Shown in pieces: positions 10,625-19,567 of a stretch of 38,995 nt of DNA (positions within the stretch are counted from its first letter, which is position 1; the number at the start of each line of letters is the position of its first letter). Position numbers and translations under genes: made by a program. Under the pieces are notes generated by a model, which searched no databases, was not told the origin of the DNA, and saw only the letters and a list, made by a program, of their open reading frames with translations. The DNA is taken from positions 1 through 38,995 of the forward strand of contig JAAZXR010000039.1 in NCBI GenBank assembly GCA_014240065.1. Reading direction: 5' to 3'. This DNA is from Myxococcales bacterium (GTDB lineage: Bacteria; Myxococcota_A; Polyangia; Nannocystales; Nannocystaceae).

Positions 10625-11908
10625 TCAGGGGGCCTGCGCGGCGAAGAAAGAGAGCATCGCCTCGAGGGCGAAGTTGGTGCCAGGAATTCTCCCCCAGGTG
10701 TGACCGCCTTGCCACACGCAGTTCACCACCTGCGCCTGCGTCTGGCAGTTCGCGTGCTCCGAGCACGCCCAGCCTTGAGTGCCGTCGAAGGCGGTCGGGT
10801 AGGGGGTCGTCGCGGTGTCACAGGACTGGCCGCTGGCCCACACCAGCGCGGTCTCGTCTGCGCCGTCGTAGATCATCCCGTCGCTCGAGGGGACCTCGGC
10901 GCCGTTGACGATGTCGTCGCCGGTGGCCCACACTTGAAACAAAGACATCTTGGAGGGGGGCGCTTGGGTGTAGCCATTCGCGGAGAAACCATGATGGGGC
11001 GCGGCGACGGTGACGACGTCGGCCAGGCGCCACGCCAACGATTGGGCGCTCTGACCGCCCTGGCTGAAGCCCGTGAGCAGCACCTGCCCCGCGTCGCCAG
11101 ACCATTCGGCGAACGAGGTCTGGAGCAGCGTTCGGATGAACCCTTCATCGTCGGCGCAGCTCGTCCCCCAGTTGCACGCGTCGTCGCCCTCTTCGGGGGG
11201 GCAATTGTCGTACACGTCGTAGTCGTAGGCGTTCATGGTGCACGTGGGTCCATCCGGCCCGGCGCTGTTGTGCGAGTCGATATCGTTGAACGAGGTGACC
11301 GCCGCCTGCCATCCCATGCCCATCGGGAGCCCGTCGGGGAAGATTCCGACATAGCCGAGCTCGTCGATCCGGTCGGTCATCTGGGATGTGCTGTTCTGAA
11401 ATCCCGCACCAGATCCGTAGTAGCCGTGGAGTCCAACGACCACCGGGCGCGGGGTGCAGTCGTAGTCTGTCGGGAGGTGGAGCTCGAAGCTCCGCGTCTC
11501 GCCGTCGTAGGTCGTCTGCAGCGAGACGGTCTGACCTGGGGTCCCTTGATCCCACGAGCACGGCGGGTCCGGTGCGTCATCCCCCGTATCCGCGCCGGTG
11601 GTGTCGGTCCCCGTGGTGTCTCCCCCCGTGGTGCCGCCGCCGGAGGTGTCGTCGCCGGAGGTGCTGGCGGGGCCGGAATCGCCGCTGGTGGATCCGCCGC
11701 CGGAGGTGTCGTCGCCGGAGGTGTCGTCGCCGGAGGTGCCAACGCCGGTGGTGCCATCCTCGGAGGTGTCGGTGGGGCCGGAATCGCCGGTGGCGCTCGA
11801 GGACGTCGTCGCATCTTGTCCCCCGTCGCCTGGGTCACTTTCTCCGCAAGACAGACTCACCGCGACCATCAGCAGCGACCACTGAGCGTTCCACACAAAA
11901 CGAGACAT
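10625..11908 (-). CDS. Esterase lipoprotein, PHB-depolymerase/LpqC-like
   Basis: 427 residues. The signal sequence MSRFVWNAQWSLLMVAVSLSCGES gives lipobox Cys21. Residues about 25-120 are an extreme low-complexity linker of Ser, Thr, Gly and Asp. The C-terminal 300 residues are an alpha/beta hydrolase: oxyanion region VVVGLHGYYGSG, nucleophile elbow GFSQGG, likely acid in WATGDDIVNG, and His in QGGHTWGR. This resembles polyhydroxybutyrate depolymerase/feruloyl-esterase proteins (LpqC type) that act on extracellular esters; the substrate is unknown. Several Cys pairs suggest disulfides in a secreted domain. ATG 11908 is chosen for the signal peptide; the frame extends to 11989 without signal-like sequence. 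It lies between cyclo-ligase (98 nt upstream) and methyltransferase (6 nt downstream). Confidence 0.85.
   Translation of the reverse strand: MSRFVWNAQWSLLMVAVSLSCGESDPGDGGQDATTSSSATGDSGPTDTSEDGTTGVGTSGDDTSGDDTSGGGSTSGDSGPASTSGDDTSGGGTTGGDTTGTDTTGADTGDDAPDPPCSWDQGTPGQTVSLQTTYDGETRSFELHLPTDYDCTPRPVVVGLHGYYGSGAGFQNSTSQMTDRIDELGYVGIFPDGLPMGMGWQAAVTSFNDIDSHNSAGPDGPTCTMNAYDYDVYDNCPPEEGDDACNWGTSCADDEGFIRTLLQTSFAEWSGDAGQVLLTGFSQGGQSAQSLAWRLADVVTVAAPHHGFSANGYTQAPPSKMSLFQVWATGDDIVNGAEVPSSDGMIYDGADETALVWASGQSCDTATTPYPTAFDGTQGWACSEHANCQTQAQVVNCVWQGGHTWGRIPGTNFALEAMLSFFAAQAP
11590..11800 (-). repeat. Coding repeats for Ser/Thr/Gly/Asp linker
   Basis: Imperfect short direct repeats, such as CGCCGGAGGTGTCGT recurring several times, encode the SGDDTSGG-like linker of the esterase lipoprotein. 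The stretch recurring near 11640 reappears near 11700. Such tracts change length by slippage or recombination. The linker probably spaces the enzyme away from the membrane. Confidence 0.7.
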
Positions 11909-11930
11909 GGGCCAACGGTACGACCAGGAG

Positions 11931-11960
11931 TGGATCCCCGCAAGTCGCTCCGGGGATTCA
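11931..11960. other. Hairpin in cyclo-ligase/esterase gap
   Basis: Arms TGGATCCCCG and CGGGGATTCA pair over 10 positions with one G-U type mismatch around a 10-nt loop. It lies 23 nt upstream of the esterase start, in its leader on the minus strand. No U-run follows, so it could modulate translation or act as an mRNA processing signal between the cyclo-ligase and esterase cistrons. Confidence 0.4.
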
Positions 11961-12005
11961 CTGCGTGCGCGCCTGTCAGGCTCGCGCAAGCCGAGCGGCC
12001 GAGGA

Positions 12006-12788
12006 TCAAGTCACGGATTTGCCGCGCAGGTGGGAGGACGACTCGATGGACGGCTCCGGGTCGTCGGGGGCGCCCAGGGCGGCGTCGATGGCGGGCATGG
12101 AGCCGCGCTTGGAGGGATCGAGCAGCGTGGGGTCGAGCAGCGAAGGGCGTGGAAAGATCCGCGGACAGCGGATCAATTCTCCTGGGGCCGCGATGAGATC
12201 GAGGGAGATATCGTTGACGTTCATCACGATCTCCTCGTCTGGACACAGTTGGCTCGGGTGGATCGTCGTGGCGATGGTCACGTCGTCCGTGATCCTCCCG
12301 GTCGCCCTCAGCAACGAGAACTCGAGGTCCGCGTATCCTCCCCCTTTCCCGAGGCGCGCGCCGGAGCGACTCGCGCCGACGCTGCCCGTGATGATGAGGT
12401 CGACGAGCGCGAGCTCGGCGGCGGCCACCGGATCTCCCCACCGCATAAACCCGGGCTTGGAGCTCGCGTCCCACAAGAGGTGTCGCTCGAGGGCGCCGGG
12501 CTCGAGCGCGACAAACGGGCAGGCTCCCGCGAGCTTCGGGACGGCGACGTACAAGGTCTTGCCCGCGAGCAACGCGGCGTATCGCAGGGGGCGCTGCGGC
12601 GCGTCTGGATTGCACTTGATGGTGTTCGCGGCCTGGAACTCGGGCGTCGCGATCAGCACCTGTGCCGCGCGCTCGGCCCCGATGAAGTTCGGGATCCGGC
12701 CGCGCGTGCCGGGCCACCGCGCGGCGCCGGAGCCTTCAAGTCGCGCCCAACAGCGCGTCCGCAGGTCTTGTTTTGGGTCCTCGTTCAA
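12006..12788 (-). CDS. 5-formyltetrahydrofolate cyclo-ligase family protein
   Basis: 260 residues. The enzyme converts 5-formyl-THF to 5,10-methenyl-THF with ATP in cytoplasmic one-carbon metabolism. The glycine-rich nucleotide/folate motif RLGKGGGYADLEF is clear. N-terminal RIPNFIGAERAAQVL is typical of the longer subgroup related to the vertebrate MTHFSD N-terminal domain rather than the short E. coli YgfA type. LALVDLIITGSVGASRSGAR precedes the Gly motif as in the family. Start is TTG 12788, the first start in frame; TTG is rare and no good Shine-Dalgarno sequence is visible, so the start is uncertain by a few residues. It follows the propeller gene by 36 nt and may be in its operon, though function gives no obvious link. 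Confidence 0.88.
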   Translation of the reverse strand: MNEDPKQDLRTRCWARLEGSGAARWPGTRGRIPNFIGAERAAQVLIATPEFQAANTIKCNPDAPQRPLRYAALLAGKTLYVAVPKLAGACPFVALEPGALERHLLWDASSKPGFMRWGDPVAAAELALVDLIITGSVGASRSGARLGKGGGYADLEFSLLRATGRITDDVTIATTIHPSQLCPDEEIVMNVNDISLDLIAAPGELIRCPRIFPRPSLLDPTLLDPSKRGSMPAIDAALGAPDDPEPSIESSSHLRGKSVT

Positions 12789-12824: not shown

Positions 12825-14948
12825 CTATCTGCGGACAGTGGTGGCGGAGAGGATGAAGTTTCCGAGGGCGTCTCGCGCGCGGATGACGAGTCGATGGTTC
12901 CCAGGCGCGAGGTCCGGGAGGCGCAGTTCGAACGCCTCGTCGGGGCTGTCGTACAGACCGTCGACAGGGCTCGCCGCCTGCAACGGCCCATCGTCGATTT
13001 GGAAGGTGACGTCGTGAATATTGCTGAGGTCGTCCACGGCGCGCCCCGTCACGGCCGCGCCGTCTACGCGAACTTCGTTGAGCCTGGGTCGGCGACGATC
13101 CACGATGAATGGCGCCGAGCGGCCCTCGTCGGTCCTGGCCTTCGAGGTCCCGTTCTCAGGGGCGTCGCTCGCGAGCACCGAGGCCTCGTACACGCCGTCG
13201 GGGACCGACGCCACGTCGAATTCAAGCTCCTCTTTGGTCACGAGCTCATCGCGCGGGCCCAGATCGATCCACGCGTCTTCGTCGCTCCCCTCCGGGCGGA
13301 TGCGGACGGTGTAGACCAGCTCGTCATCGTCGTCGTCCTCCGCCTCCCACTTGATCTTGGCGTTGGCCTCGGGTTCGTCGTCGTCTTCTTGGTCGAAATC
13401 GGGGCCCTCAAATTCTACGCTGCTCACCTTGGGCGCGAGATTCTCGGGGCCGTAGAAGAAGTTAAATTCACGCACCTCCGCGTTGGCGGACTCGAGGCTG
13501 AATCGTAGCTGCGCGAAGCGTCGGAGGGGGAGTTGAAGATCTCCCCGGAGGCCCTGGACTGTCGCCGACAAGCTCACTGGCTTCCAGTCGCCCCAGCGGG
13601 CGTCGGGTTCCTCAGTGGGGCCCACGCGAGCCTCGGCGCGGACCTTGCCAGAGGCCCGCACAATGAGCGCCCCATAGGTCGCCGGTTGGCCGGCGTCGAA
13701 CACCTCGGAGGTGTAGCGCGCCACGGCGGGCGCCGTATCGGTCAAGCCGTAGACCGCCGCGCCTTGTCCGGCGGTGGCGTAGAGTTGCGGCCCCTTGCCG
13801 CGGCCGCCGCTCGCGGTGACGCGACACAAGCTGGTCGCGAGCCGCTCTTCGAGGTCGGCGACCACCGCATGGTCGCGCCGACCCTTGACGCGGTAGACGC
13901 GGCCCGCGCGTGAGGAGCTCACGAGGAAATCGCCCGCAGAGGAGGTCGCCAACCCCGTGAAGTACTGGTCCTCCACGTCCATCCACGTCTCCCAGGTAGC
14001 CTCGAGGGCGCGGGACAGATCGCGGCGAGCGCCGCCACCGGTGAGATCCACGTAGTGCAGGGCCGCGTCGGCGTCGGGGGATGACTCGGACGCGGTCTTG
14101 CGAGGGGGCGCGGCCCCCGAGAGGTTCGCGCGGTTGAGCTGTGACTGGAGGTTCTTCAGCGTGCTGATCTTGCGCTTCTCAAAGTCGTTCACAGCGGCGA
14201 CGAGGCCGCGGTCGTTGGCCGCGAGGGCGCGGACTTCGTCGCCCTCAAAGTCGTGCACGAGCTGCCCCTTGACGTCGGGGGTCACCTGAAACACCTTCGC
14301 GCCCGGTGAGGTGCCGGCGAGGACTTCACCATCGAGCTCGAGGAGGCTGAGCACGTCTTTCGCCTCGCTGTCGAGCACGACCTTGGCGTCGGATCCGTCC
14401 AGCGCGAGCGACCACACCTCACCCTTGGGGCCGGTGCCGACGAAGATTCGCTCACCGATCACGCGGAGCGCCCAGATCCGTTTGACGCCCTTTAGCGCCG
14501 CGAACTCGGAGGTCTTGCCCCTCGGCGTGACTCGGGTGAGCGCGCCGCCAGGGAGCGTCGCGGCGATGAGGTGGCCGTTGGAGAGCTCCGCCATCGCGGT
14601 GACGACGACGCCCGAGAGCTCGGCGACCGTTTTGACTTGAACGCCCTTCTTCGACGAGGTGACCTTACGGATCGAGGCGTCGTCCGCGGTGCCCACGTAG
14701 AGGTTTTTCTTCCCGGCGAGGCACGAGAACACGGAGTTGACGTCCTCAAGCTCCGCGCGCGTGGTGGCGGTCCCCACGGTGACCTTGCCCGACGACTCGA
14801 TCGCGGCGCCCTTCGTGGTCCCCTCGTCGAACTCTTTGAAGTCGTGGACGCGCGTGTTCCGAGTCCCACCCGCGCGCAGGTCGTGAGGGAGCAGCCACGC
14901 CGCGGCGGCGATCATGCAGGAGAGGGCGAGGGATCGATTTCGTCTCAT
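12825..14948 (-). CDS. Secreted beta-propeller protein with C-terminal Ig/Fn3-like domains
   Basis: 707 residues. The signal peptide MRRNRSLALSCMIAAAAWLL ends near residue 26 (LRAGG). Residues about 35-430 are repetitive strands with motifs such as NLYVGTADDASIRKV, RIFVGTGPKGEVWSL and EVLAGTSPGAKVFQV, each about 40-50 residues apart, as in seven-bladed propellers. Residues about 430-530 form a beta domain (YTSEVFDAGQPATYGALIV). About 535-640 is a Fn3/Ig-like region with a very acidic patch (DFDQEDDDEPEANAK and EDDDDDELVYT). The end (about 650-707) resembles a bacterial Ig-like fold (VTFQIDDGPLQ, HRLVIRARDALGN). No catalytic motif was found; a binding or scaffold role outside the cytoplasm is inferred. 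It starts 4 nt after the S55 peptidase stop. Confidence 0.8.
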   Translation of the reverse strand: MRRNRSLALSCMIAAAAWLLPHDLRAGGTRNTRVHDFKEFDEGTTKGAAIESSGKVTVGTATTRAELEDVNSVFSCLAGKKNLYVGTADDASIRKVTSSKKGVQVKTVAELSGVVVTAMAELSNGHLIAATLPGGALTRVTPRGKTSEFAALKGVKRIWALRVIGERIFVGTGPKGEVWSLALDGSDAKVVLDSEAKDVLSLLELDGEVLAGTSPGAKVFQVTPDVKGQLVHDFEGDEVRALAANDRGLVAAVNDFEKRKISTLKNLQSQLNRANLSGAAPPRKTASESSPDADAALHYVDLTGGGARRDLSRALEATWETWMDVEDQYFTGLATSSAGDFLVSSSRAGRVYRVKGRRDHAVVADLEERLATSLCRVTASGGRGKGPQLYATAGQGAAVYGLTDTAPAVARYTSEVFDAGQPATYGALIVRASGKVRAEARVGPTEEPDARWGDWKPVSLSATVQGLRGDLQLPLRRFAQLRFSLESANAEVREFNFFYGPENLAPKVSSVEFEGPDFDQEDDDEPEANAKIKWEAEDDDDDELVYTVRIRPEGSDEDAWIDLGPRDELVTKEELEFDVASVPDGVYEASVLASDAPENGTSKARTDEGRSAPFIVDRRRPRLNEVRVDGAAVTGRAVDDLSNIHDVTFQIDDGPLQAASPVDGLYDSPDEAFELRLPDLAPGNHRLVIRARDALGNFILSATTVRR

Positions 14949-14952
14949 TGGG

Positions 14953-16833
14953 CTATTCGCTGATGCGGCGGCGGCCGATTTCTACGGTGAGGGACTGCTC
15001 CCCGTACACGAGGTTGGGCGTCTGCACGACGCGATGGACGGCGCGTTTAACACGCAGCGCTCGGTTAGAATTACTGAGCGGGTCGAGGGATTCGAGGAGG
15101 CTCGGAGGCAGGTCGTCGATGATCCCTTGTTTGGTGGCGAGCCCCTCTTGAGGGGAGAACACCGACGCCACCAGGGCGCGGGCGGGGTAGGTCGACGTGA
15201 GGCTGTCGATGAGCTCATCGACATCGCCGATCAATTGGGTCTGGGGAGTGACTGACAGGCCCCCCGCCACATGGATCGCCAATTTCTCGCCCGCGACGTC
15301 GTCGGGAATCCGGACGTCGAGGTGGACCCAGCTGTCTGGCTGTCGCTCGTGGACGAGCCGAATGTCGAGCCGCGCGAGATCACCGGGGCGCAGATCTCCC
15401 GAGCCGAGGCGGATCTCCGCGACGCGACGCACCTTGACCCCGTAATTCACCACCGCCTCTTGGTTCACCGAGATGATCCGGCCGCGCTCAAAGCGGTTGT
15501 CGAGGATCTTCGCGATCACCTGCAGGGCCGTGGCCCGATAAAAGGGTGCCGGCACGATCCCGGCGGGGAAGCCGAGCTCGTCCTCCAAGGAGATGGTGCG
15601 GATCCCGTTGGAGGTCTCGATCGTCACCTCGTGTCGAAGGGTCGTCGTGAGCTCCACCTGGTCACCGGCGGCTTCTTCGAGCCCCCCCATGAGCAAGGAG
15701 GCCACCAGCGTGGGCGTGAGGGCGGGGTCGACGGCGACGACGGTCTTGGAGGTGCGGGTCTCGAAGCCCTCCTCGGCGCCACGGATGGTCGTCGTGACGG
15801 GGATCTTCGGCGCGACGATGTCGGTGCGCAATGAGATCGCCGGTTGTCGATCTTGAATCAGCGTGCCTTGGATCGCCACCGGGCTCGAGAGCTTCATCGA
15901 GCGGTCGACGCTGCTGACGATGGTGTGGACCTTCGCGTCGGCCATGGGCAGGTTCGATGGTCCCGCCCCGTACAGCGGGTGTCCGAAGGCGAGGACACGC
16001 TCGTTCTTGCGACCACCGACCCAGGTCACTGTCCCGCTGGGCGCGATGGCGGTGTCACCACCGACGAGCACCACCGCGACGGCGTCGCCCGGCTGGAAGT
16101 TCTTGCGCGTGCTGGCGTCGGCCATCTTCCCGCCCCCCCGACCGCCCGCGACGGGGGTGAATCCGAGCTGCTCCGCGAGGTGGAGGGTGGTGCGTGGACC
16201 GAACCCGCCGAGGCTCATGGGGACGGCGAGCGGGGTCATTCCAATATTGCCCGCGGCGCCGCGCTCGAGCGGTCGGCGCGCGGGCAGGGGCGACGCGCCC
16301 AGCTGGAGCATGCTGTCCACGCGGCCTCCCTCTCGCGCCTCGCGGCCCATCGCGACGGGCTGGACCTCGGGGCGATGAGGCAGCTCCCCGATCTCGAGCA
16401 TATTCTCGATCGGGGTGAGGCCGCCGAGGGGATCCTTGTTGAAGCGCCACCCGAACGCGACCGCGCCGATCATCTTGCCCCCGACGTAGACCGGAGAACC
16501 AGACATGCCCCCTACGATCCCGGAGTGTTGCAGCCGCGGGTCGAGCGCCCGAAAGAGGATCGCGGGCTGCCCAGGGTTGAAGTTATGGATGACGTCGACG
16601 ATCTCGACTTCGAAGCGGTCGGGGTCTGTGCCAGAGAAGACCGTGACGGCGTGGCCCTTCATCCCGGGCTTCACGTCCTCAATCGGCATGATGCCCGGCG
16701 CGGGTGGACGGGCGGTGGCGGTGGCGGGCGTCGCGACCTCGCAGGTGACGAAGGCGAAGGCGCACAGCATGGACAGGCCGGCGACGGTCGCGAGCGCCGG
16801 TCTGCGGGAGGTGAGGTGGGACGAGGAAGTCAT
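14953..16833 (-). CDS. S55 (SpoIVB-like) serine peptidase, permuted order
   Basis: 626 residues. A signal or anchor segment (about 13-35) precedes the mature part. FEVEIVDVI, then GIVGGMSGSPVYVGGKMIGA (Ser111, with Asp98 upstream) matches the Ser half of the SpoIVB S55 peptidase. RVLAFGHPLYGAG (His285) matches the His half. In Bacillus SpoIVB, as recalled, the His half comes first and GMSGSP is near the C terminus, so the order here is reversed. The C-terminal 250 residues (from about 370) are beta-rich with no clear match. SpoIVB is a secreted protease that signals across a membrane; the substrate here is unknown. ATGA overlap with the thioredoxin gene upstream and a 4-nt gap to the propeller gene indicate one transcript and probably one pathway. 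Confidence 0.86.
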   Translation of the reverse strand: MTSSSHLTSRRPALATVAGLSMLCAFAFVTCEVATPATATARPPAPGIMPIEDVKPGMKGHAVTVFSGTDPDRFEVEIVDVIHNFNPGQPAILFRALDPRLQHSGIVGGMSGSPVYVGGKMIGAVAFGWRFNKDPLGGLTPIENMLEIGELPHRPEVQPVAMGREAREGGRVDSMLQLGASPLPARRPLERGAAGNIGMTPLAVPMSLGGFGPRTTLHLAEQLGFTPVAGGRGGGKMADASTRKNFQPGDAVAVVLVGGDTAIAPSGTVTWVGGRKNERVLAFGHPLYGAGPSNLPMADAKVHTIVSSVDRSMKLSSPVAIQGTLIQDRQPAISLRTDIVAPKIPVTTTIRGAEEGFETRTSKTVVAVDPALTPTLVASLLMGGLEEAAGDQVELTTTLRHEVTIETSNGIRTISLEDELGFPAGIVPAPFYRATALQVIAKILDNRFERGRIISVNQEAVVNYGVKVRRVAEIRLGSGDLRPGDLARLDIRLVHERQPDSWVHLDVRIPDDVAGEKLAIHVAGGLSVTPQTQLIGDVDELIDSLTSTYPARALVASVFSPQEGLATKQGIIDDLPPSLLESLDPLSNSNRALRVKRAVHRVVQTPNLVYGEQSLTVEIGRRRISE

Positions 16834-18343: not shown

Positions 18344-19567
18344 CTATGGCGTGGACGAGGTGAGCGCCTCCACGATCGACGCGGCGCGGAAGCGAAGGTG
18401 CTCCCCGGCCTGTCTCTTCACCTTTTTGGCGAGCTCAAGCGTCGCGTCGTCGGGGCGCTGTCGGTGGATGCTGACGAGGGCCTGGACGCGCGCGCCGTCC
18501 GCGAGCTTGTCGTTGAGCACCGCCGCCTCGAGCAGCTCAAGGTTTCGGCCGCACTGCGCCGCGCTCCCCGGAGCCTTCTGGGCTCGCTTCGCGGGACAGA
18601 TCCTGCGGAGCGGGATGGTGAGGTTCTTGTTCATCGTGCCGGCCTCGATCTCGCTGGCCGCGTGGTCGAGGAGGGCGTCGATGAAGGTCCCGCCGCACCA
18701 CACCATCGTGTTCGCGGCCTCATTGGCCACCGATGGGCGGGGCTCCGCCAAGGAGGGTTGGACCCACCCGCAGAGCGTGGCGCGTTCGCTGGGAGTGGCG
18801 TCGACGAGGGCGCGAGGCGCCGCCATGATCGCCGCGGCGACGCGCGGCGCGTCGGCTTGATCGAACGCGAGCTGAAGCGTCGGAAACCCGGCCAGCCGCG
18901 AGTAGCGGAGCATCGCGCCGTAGATGATCGGCAGCAGCGCTTCACTGTGCGGGTGCTTTTTGGCGGTCGCTATCAGCGCGTCGAATTCGCCGGCGATGGC
19001 CGCGGCGTGGGTGATTCCGACGGCGCTCCGGGCCGCGTGAAAATTTGGGAGCTCGGCGAGGCCTGCGATCAACGCCTTCGCGGTGGCTCGCCGCACCACT
19101 GGGCGGCTCCCGTCGAGGGACAGCGAGCGCATGAGCCCACCCACGACGTAGGCCGCCACCGTCGCGCGGGCGCCGTCGCCGCCGCTCAAGAGCTCCGCCC
19201 AGGCGGGGAGCAGCGCCGCGCGCGGCCGCGAGCCATCCGCGTAGTGAGCGAGGAACGAGCGCTGCTCATCGTTCGCGCAGCGACTGACGACGCAGCGTTC
19301 TTGATCGATCTCGCAGTTGGCCACCATGGCGTCCACCGCGGCGAACAGAGCCCCGCGGGCCTCACGTTCAGCGGGCGCCATCGCGGGTTCGCGCTCGGCA
19401 GAGCGCCCGCCACGCGGGGGCTCCCCCGAGCCCTCCGTCGCCACGGGTTCACGAGGGGTCGCGCGACCGCAGCCAGCGCTCGCGAGCGAGAGGGCGAGCG
19501 CGGCGCAGGAGACAGCGCCGACGACGAGCGGCGGGCGGCGGTGTCCACGATGGGCTAGGATTCGCAT
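18344..19567 (-). CDS. Helical-repeat lipoprotein, unknown function
   Basis: 407 residues. A signal with SLASAGCG gives a lipobox Cys near residue 33, then a charged Pro/Gly/Glu linker to about 65. The rest is Ala/Leu-rich and strongly helical, with repeating two-helix units (RATVAAYVVGGLMRS, RRATAKALIAGLAEL, RVAAAIMAAPRALVD), suggesting HEAT-like repeats. Several Cys occur in pairs (NCEIDQERCVVSRC; ICPAK to QCGRN), fitting disulfides outside the cytoplasm. No catalytic motif was seen; a binding scaffold is a fair inference. Its ATG at 19567 lies inside the end of the SRPBCC gene (13-nt overlap), so translation is probably coupled. It converges with sfsA across about 29 nt. Confidence 0.78.
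   Translation of the reverse strand: MRILAHRGHRRPPLVVGAVSCAALALSLASAGCGRATPREPVATEGSGEPPRGGRSAEREPAMAPAEREARGALFAAVDAMVANCEIDQERCVVSRCANDEQRSFLAHYADGSRPRAALLPAWAELLSGGDGARATVAAYVVGGLMRSLSLDGSRPVVRRATAKALIAGLAELPNFHAARSAVGITHAAAIAGEFDALIATAKKHPHSEALLPIIYGAMLRYSRLAGFPTLQLAFDQADAPRVAAAIMAAPRALVDATPSERATLCGWVQPSLAEPRPSVANEAANTMVWCGGTFIDALLDHAASEIEAGTMNKNLTIPLRRICPAKRAQKAPGSAAQCGRNLELLEAAVLNDKLADGARVQALVSIHRQRPDDATLELAKKVKRQAGEHLRFRAASIVEALTSSTP

Follow-up and report, generated by a model that had tools for sequence, protein, structure and literature searches.

Sequence evidence for a circularly permuted S55-type serine protease paired with a secreted beta-propeller protein

A gene in the window, the 38,995-nucleotide stretch of DNA analysed here, very probably codes for a serine endopeptidase that is exported and belongs to the S55/SpoIVB lineage, with a PA-type core whose two barrels are exchanged, invariant Ser, His and Asp residues, and a beta-propeller protein as its partner. 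A broader proposal, which we consider reasonably likely, is that the gene represents an ancient and widespread natural permutation of the PA fold: an exported Ser-His-Asp protease that has an obligate propeller partner and retains the Asp that SpoIVB replaced. The relevant features are listed below.

14953..16833, minus strand: permuted S55-type serine protease (from the list of open reading frames; 626 amino acids, ATG start)
16384..16701, minus strand: Ser barrel, residues 45-150, equivalent to the C-terminal barrel of SpoIVB (Pfam, AF2 strands, 9lnf match)
16492..16509, minus strand: GMSGSP with predicted nucleophile Ser111, residues 109-114 (invariant in 76 of 76 sequences)
16249..16359, minus strand: linker between the barrels, residues 159-195, probably disordered (pLDDT below 50 over most of its length)
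15826..16098, minus strand: His barrel, residues 246-336, equivalent to the N-terminal barrel of SpoIVB (profile alignments, DSSP of the AF2 model)
15976..15990, minus strand: AFGHP with predicted catalytic His285, residues 282-286 (invariant in 76 of 76; aligned to SpoIVB His236)
15850..15852, minus strand: Asp328, proposed third catalytic residue, in the turn that links strands E and F within the His barrel (unchanged in all 76 sequences)
14956..15717, minus strand: C-terminal region, residues 373-626, without a counterpart in SpoIVB (DSSP of the AF2 model)
12825..14948, minus strand: exported partner with beta-propeller and Ig-like parts, 707 amino acids, starting 4 nucleotides past the protease stop codon
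16830..17399, minus strand: thioredoxin-like lipoprotein gene (PF13899, 1.2e-16), upstream of the protease and overlapping its start by 4 nucleotides

The 626-residue protein scores 40.6 bits against PF05580 (Pfam curated cut-off 25), which places it in S55 by score, and the match is restricted to residues 53-139, corresponding to profile positions 117-202 of 210. TIGR02860, the NCBIfam model for SpoIVB, also recognizes the Ser half only, with a score of 42.0 bits that is far below the equivalog cut-off of 305.25. The original prediction held that the Ser segment lies ahead of the His segment, in the order opposite to that of SpoIVB, and this is borne out. GMSGSP (Ser111, residues 109-114) precedes AFGHP (His285, residues 282-286), whereas in the sequence of Bacillus subtilis SpoIVB (MEROPS S55; PDB 9lnf) GALGH (His236) comes before GMSGSP (Ser378), the same order being given in PMC12502668. 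Ser comes before His in all 76 aligned sequences, which are thus not collinear with SpoIVB and its leading His barrel. Because this order is conserved in every one of them, including those from finished chromosomes such as that of Minicystis rosea (L053), the reversal is not an assembly artefact. With Asp328 included, the residues run Ser111, His285, Asp328 along the chain, and not His, Asp, Ser as in the PA clan.

If the halves have been exchanged, restoring their order in silico should yield a full-length match, and such a match was obtained. Constructs joining residues 246-362 to residues 46-150 were made for the window protein and three relatives. These four proteins in native order cover PF05580 only at positions 118-209, 126-202, 126-192 and 124-202, whereas with the halves swapped the matches extend over 17-209, 13-202, 13-192 and 13-202 and score 3-7 bits higher. 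We also built a family profile from all 76 sequences and compared it with four SpoIVB proteins (that of B. subtilis plus three taken from plasmid records). In hmmsearch, the swapped profile gives a single continuous match to each SpoIVB (58.1, 50.8, 45.4 and 42.6 bits), whereas the native-order profile gives weaker pieces in opposite order (best 51.0, 45.9, 29.9 and 36.6). In hhalign, the score against SpoIVB is 118.2 over 179 columns for the swapped profile, compared with 93.9 over 85 columns for the native one. Exchanging the halves therefore merges two matches that lie in the wrong order into a single continuous one, which supports the circular permutation first suspected from the motif order.

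One alternative is that no permutation has taken place, and that a fragment of S55 is followed by an unrelated beta domain with a GH motif that arose by chance. It is favored by the Pfam and NCBIfam models, which match only the Ser half in native order, and by a search of the whole PDB in which the profile of the His half on its own fails to recover 9lnf. Nonetheless, this alternative is very unlikely. None of 150 shuffles of the His-half columns reaches the hhalign score of 118.2 (94.2 +/- 0.8, maximum 103.0), and scores of 96-97 are obtained with four further regions of the protease. By itself, the His half reaches 34.1 against the SpoIVB profile, compared with a shuffle maximum of 25.7, and aligns at the His barrel and at His236. 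In addition, one native open reading frame in genome G143 yields unaided Pfam matches for both halves in reversed order, to positions 114-191 and then to 12-75 (the latter with an E value of 1.6e-4), and His285 and Asp328 are both invariant.

A second alternative holds that the likeness of the His half reflects nothing more than the symmetry between the two barrels of such proteases, such that the order of the barrels is uninformative. This would be in keeping with the isolated His-half model, for which many VIA matches fall on the C-terminal barrels of PA proteases. However, the two halves of the protease do not match each other (probability 0.4%), and the His half selects template columns 190-276 of SpoIVB, its His barrel, rather than columns 304-391, its Ser barrel. 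We consider this second alternative very improbable. The split-profile comparison proposed with the original prediction supports a circular permutation, in that the His half falls on the SpoIVB barrel that precedes the Ser barrel. The GH and GMSGSP segments are both homologous to those of SpoIVB by profile comparison, as expected of an S55 protein. At the level of sequence, these comparisons demonstrate that the barrels were exchanged through a circular permutation with its break at the domain boundary, and that the resemblance is not due to chance.

An AF2 model of the whole protease (mean pLDDT 87.6, pTM 0.85) shows both barrels intact but exchanged, which is the outcome that the original prediction anticipated from structure prediction. 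Strands of the Ser barrel are placed at residues 59-64 (A), 72-86 (B), 89-96 (C), 114-117 (D), 120-128 (E) and 136-141 (F), with Ser111 between C and D. Those of the His barrel are placed at 251-259 (A), 262-273 (B), 279-282 (C), 291-306 (D), 313-329 (E) and 332-336 (F), with His285 between C and D and Asp328 between E and F. A six-strand pattern with Ser, His and Asp in these loops is the arrangement found within the two barrels of chymotrypsin-like enzymes. The model and the fold matches of the Ser barrel thus point to a PA fold, with two six-stranded barrels that carry the three residues in the usual loops. The Ser barrel matches residues 311-424 of 9lnf structurally, with 31% identity, and the C-terminal barrels of the HtrA proteases DegQ, Deg9 and DegP with moderate Z scores of 6-8. 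Folded alone, the His half gives a confident model whose top 25 VIA matches all belong to PA-clan proteases, again with moderate scores (Z 4.5-6.2). These matches are mainly to C-terminal (second) barrels of other proteases, which the pseudo-symmetry of the barrels would explain; plain Foldseek was uninformative. The structure aligners used are sequential and cannot follow an exchanged barrel order. VIA also matched residues 212-465 with superantigen-like proteins of staphylococci (Z about 6), which was treated as a common-fold resemblance.

In the AF2 model, the protease uses the same loops for His (C-D), Asp (E-F) and Ser (C-D) as do HtrA/Deg and the trypsin-like (S1) proteases of the PA clan, but it differs from them in its Ser-His-Asp order, in the absence of a PDZ domain and in having no detectable sequence similarity to HtrA. 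When the His half was compared by sequence with the N-terminal barrel of HtrA, nothing rose above noise, and the weak alignment that it gives to the C-terminal barrel of HtrA, at the GNP motif, scores no better than noise.

Ser111, His285, Lys314 and Asp328 are invariant among the 76 aligned sequences, and Asp328 was also read by eye in nine further members, including divergent ones in which the neighboring Arg changes. The original assignment of Asp98 to the catalytic set has to be given up. Only nine of the 76 relatives carry Asp at this position, the others having G (33), H (32) or S (2), and the SpoIVB counterpart, Asp363, is reported to be separated from His236 by about 24 A in the crystal structure (PMC12502668), so Asp98 is not the triad acid. 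We infer that Ser111, His285 and Asp328 constitute a classical triad. Asp328 is aligned by profile with Asn290 of B. subtilis SpoIVB, and with Ser, Asn and Asn in the three other SpoIVB proteins; its role as an acid is therefore not inherited from a tested enzyme. The SpoIVB crystal form has a non-canonical triad in which the catalytic acid could not be placed (PMC12502668). The alignment suggests that SpoIVB lost its catalytic acid and, if true, the retention by the permuted family of the classical Asp replaced in SpoIVB would explain this odd triad. The family thus bears on the question of the SpoIVB acid, with an invariant Asp at the classical position where four SpoIVB proteins have Asn or Ser.

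The same crystal form could be taken to favor a reading in which the permuted fold is real and the protein is a non-catalytic scaffold (a pseudoprotease), such as a docking module for the propeller, and no biochemistry on the permuted S55 family was found in the literature searched. This appears unlikely, given that Ser, His and Asp do not change in any of the 76 sequences, drawn from about a dozen phyla, while neighboring positions vary, and that all three are retained in divergent paralogues. The paralogues in question, L137 and L138 of Poribacteria genome G105 and L136 of genome G101, lack the usual PGMKGYG segment near the N terminus but retain the Asp together with GMSGSP and GH. In total, three copies are present in genome G105.

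The protease and SpoIVB share the GMSGSP and GH segments and a two-barrel serine protease core (PMC12502668), and profile comparison shows each barrel to be homologous to its SpoIVB counterpart. In addition to the exchanged barrels and the invariant Asp328 in place of Asn290, the protease differs in having about 250 extra C-terminal residues and a propeller partner, and in lacking the PDZ domain that SpoIVB carries before its His barrel. Pfam finds no PDZ domain in it, so that the protease has no recognizable one, as had been noted at the outset. A remnant of such a domain between the barrels (residues 198-246) was suggested by one hhalign path but was rejected, as it does not score above shuffles on the SpoIVB profile, 43 of 150 of which reach its score. 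In the model, the linker at residues 159-195 is the new connection made by the permutation. A relic of duplication, in the form of a second Ser barrel behind the His barrel (residues 337-480), finds no support. DSSP of the AF2 model divides the C-terminal region into an alpha/beta segment followed by a beta-sandwich-like domain. The first of these (residues 373-476; 15406-15717, minus strand) lies behind the His barrel and has neither a SpoIVB counterpart nor a Pfam model, and residues 467-626 give a weak structural match to 7e1y (Z 6.1). At the other end of the protein, a hydrophobic segment can be read at residues 18-30, and the protease is probably exported.

The downstream partner scores as a beta-propeller, with matches down to an E value of 3e-34, and Ig-like domains are recognized in its fused relatives. 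At loci with room to see a partner, it is directly downstream in 67 and fused to the protease in three, for a total of 70 of 76. We searched 96 Myxococcota genomes with the partner's own profile (E up to 1e-40) and found partner and protease in exactly the same 30, the other 66 having neither, although these counts ignore shared ancestry. Judging by coordinates, about 26 of the 30 have the partner adjacent to the protease; in one the distance is 2.6 kb, and in three the two genes lie on separate contigs. In a Pyrinomonadaceae genome (G113), the partner is present but unlinked to the protease. The fusions are single chains of 1308-1531 residues that combine the protease with propeller and Ig-like parts (L072:168-4763, L095:124-4050 and L111:5890-10071). 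Gene order and co-occurrence thus demonstrate that the permuted protease and a secreted beta-propeller/Ig protein form a near-obligate pair. Reg_prop, Vgb lyase and PQQ-type secreted proteins likewise score as beta-propellers, but the partner differs from them in its extra Ig-like domains and in being a distinct conserved family that is tied to the permuted protease.

A scan of species genomes yielded 80 loci from about a dozen bacterial phyla, with group names as in the record titles: Myxococcota, Acidobacteriota, Planctomycetota (including the anammox genera Scalindua, Brocadia and Kuenenia), Gemmatimonadota, KSB1, WOR-3, BRC1, Wallbacteria, Poribacteria, Obscuribacterales, Hebobacteria and Zipacnadia, the last two of which we take to belong with Armatimonadota. 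Unlike SpoIVB, the permuted protease occurs outside endospore formers. An S55 match is present in 77 of 101 Zipacnadia genomes, mostly in frames of 1300-1550 amino acids. This length fits protease-propeller fusions, and the fused arrangement probably dominates in this phylum, from which L111 derives. Every PF05580 match in Myxococcota and in 20 genomes from the other loci is to the Ser half only, so no protein with the SpoIVB order was seen there; no SpoIVB was found in viral contigs.

The breadth of this distribution might suggest that SpoIVB is the rearranged form, with the swap of barrels being older within S55 and the PA order having been regained upon acquisition of the PDZ domain. The swapped form also keeps the Asp where the four SpoIVB proteins have Asn or Ser. 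However, S1/PA proteases run His, Asp, Ser along the chain (PMC3434108), which makes the SpoIVB order the parsimonious ancestral state, and we judge an older swap to be improbable.

In the mechanism we propose, the chain would comprise the Ser barrel, a disordered linker, the His barrel and then the extra C-terminal domains, and the barrels would fold back together such that Ser111, His285 and Asp328 form one classical triad in a single active site, a point on which the pTM of 0.85 bears only indirectly. The active protease would cleave proteins in the periplasm or outside the cell. The original prediction raised the possibility of an activation route different from that of SpoIVB, for which the conserved propeller protein is now a concrete candidate. 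It might replace the SpoIVB PDZ domain in regulation or substrate choice, acting as an activator or a presenter of substrates. Alternatively, the propeller protein may itself be the main substrate of the protease.

Few enzymes have been studied as thoroughly as the PA-clan proteases, and this family offers a natural member with exchanged barrels in about a dozen phyla. Limited open-access literature yielded no report of a permuted S55 or PA-clan protease with exchanged barrels, and no paper on the protease-propeller pair. Domain models match the Ser half only, which would keep the family hidden in databases, where such proteins would be labeled S55 or SpoIVB peptidases from the half match. As judged from sequence, the protease and propeller would define an unstudied exported system of two proteins.

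The propeller partner is the only conserved neighbor of the protease that was found, and defense-system models gave no match. No Sigma70-type promoters were found near the operon, and terminator-like sites are at chance level. Two open reading frames close to the operon (18344-19567 and 11869-12717, both on the minus strand) have no Pfam match. The thioredoxin-like lipoprotein gene is likely to be in the same operon as the protease, and it is lineage-specific, standing beside the protease only at five Nannocystaceae-like loci (L003 and L032-L035).
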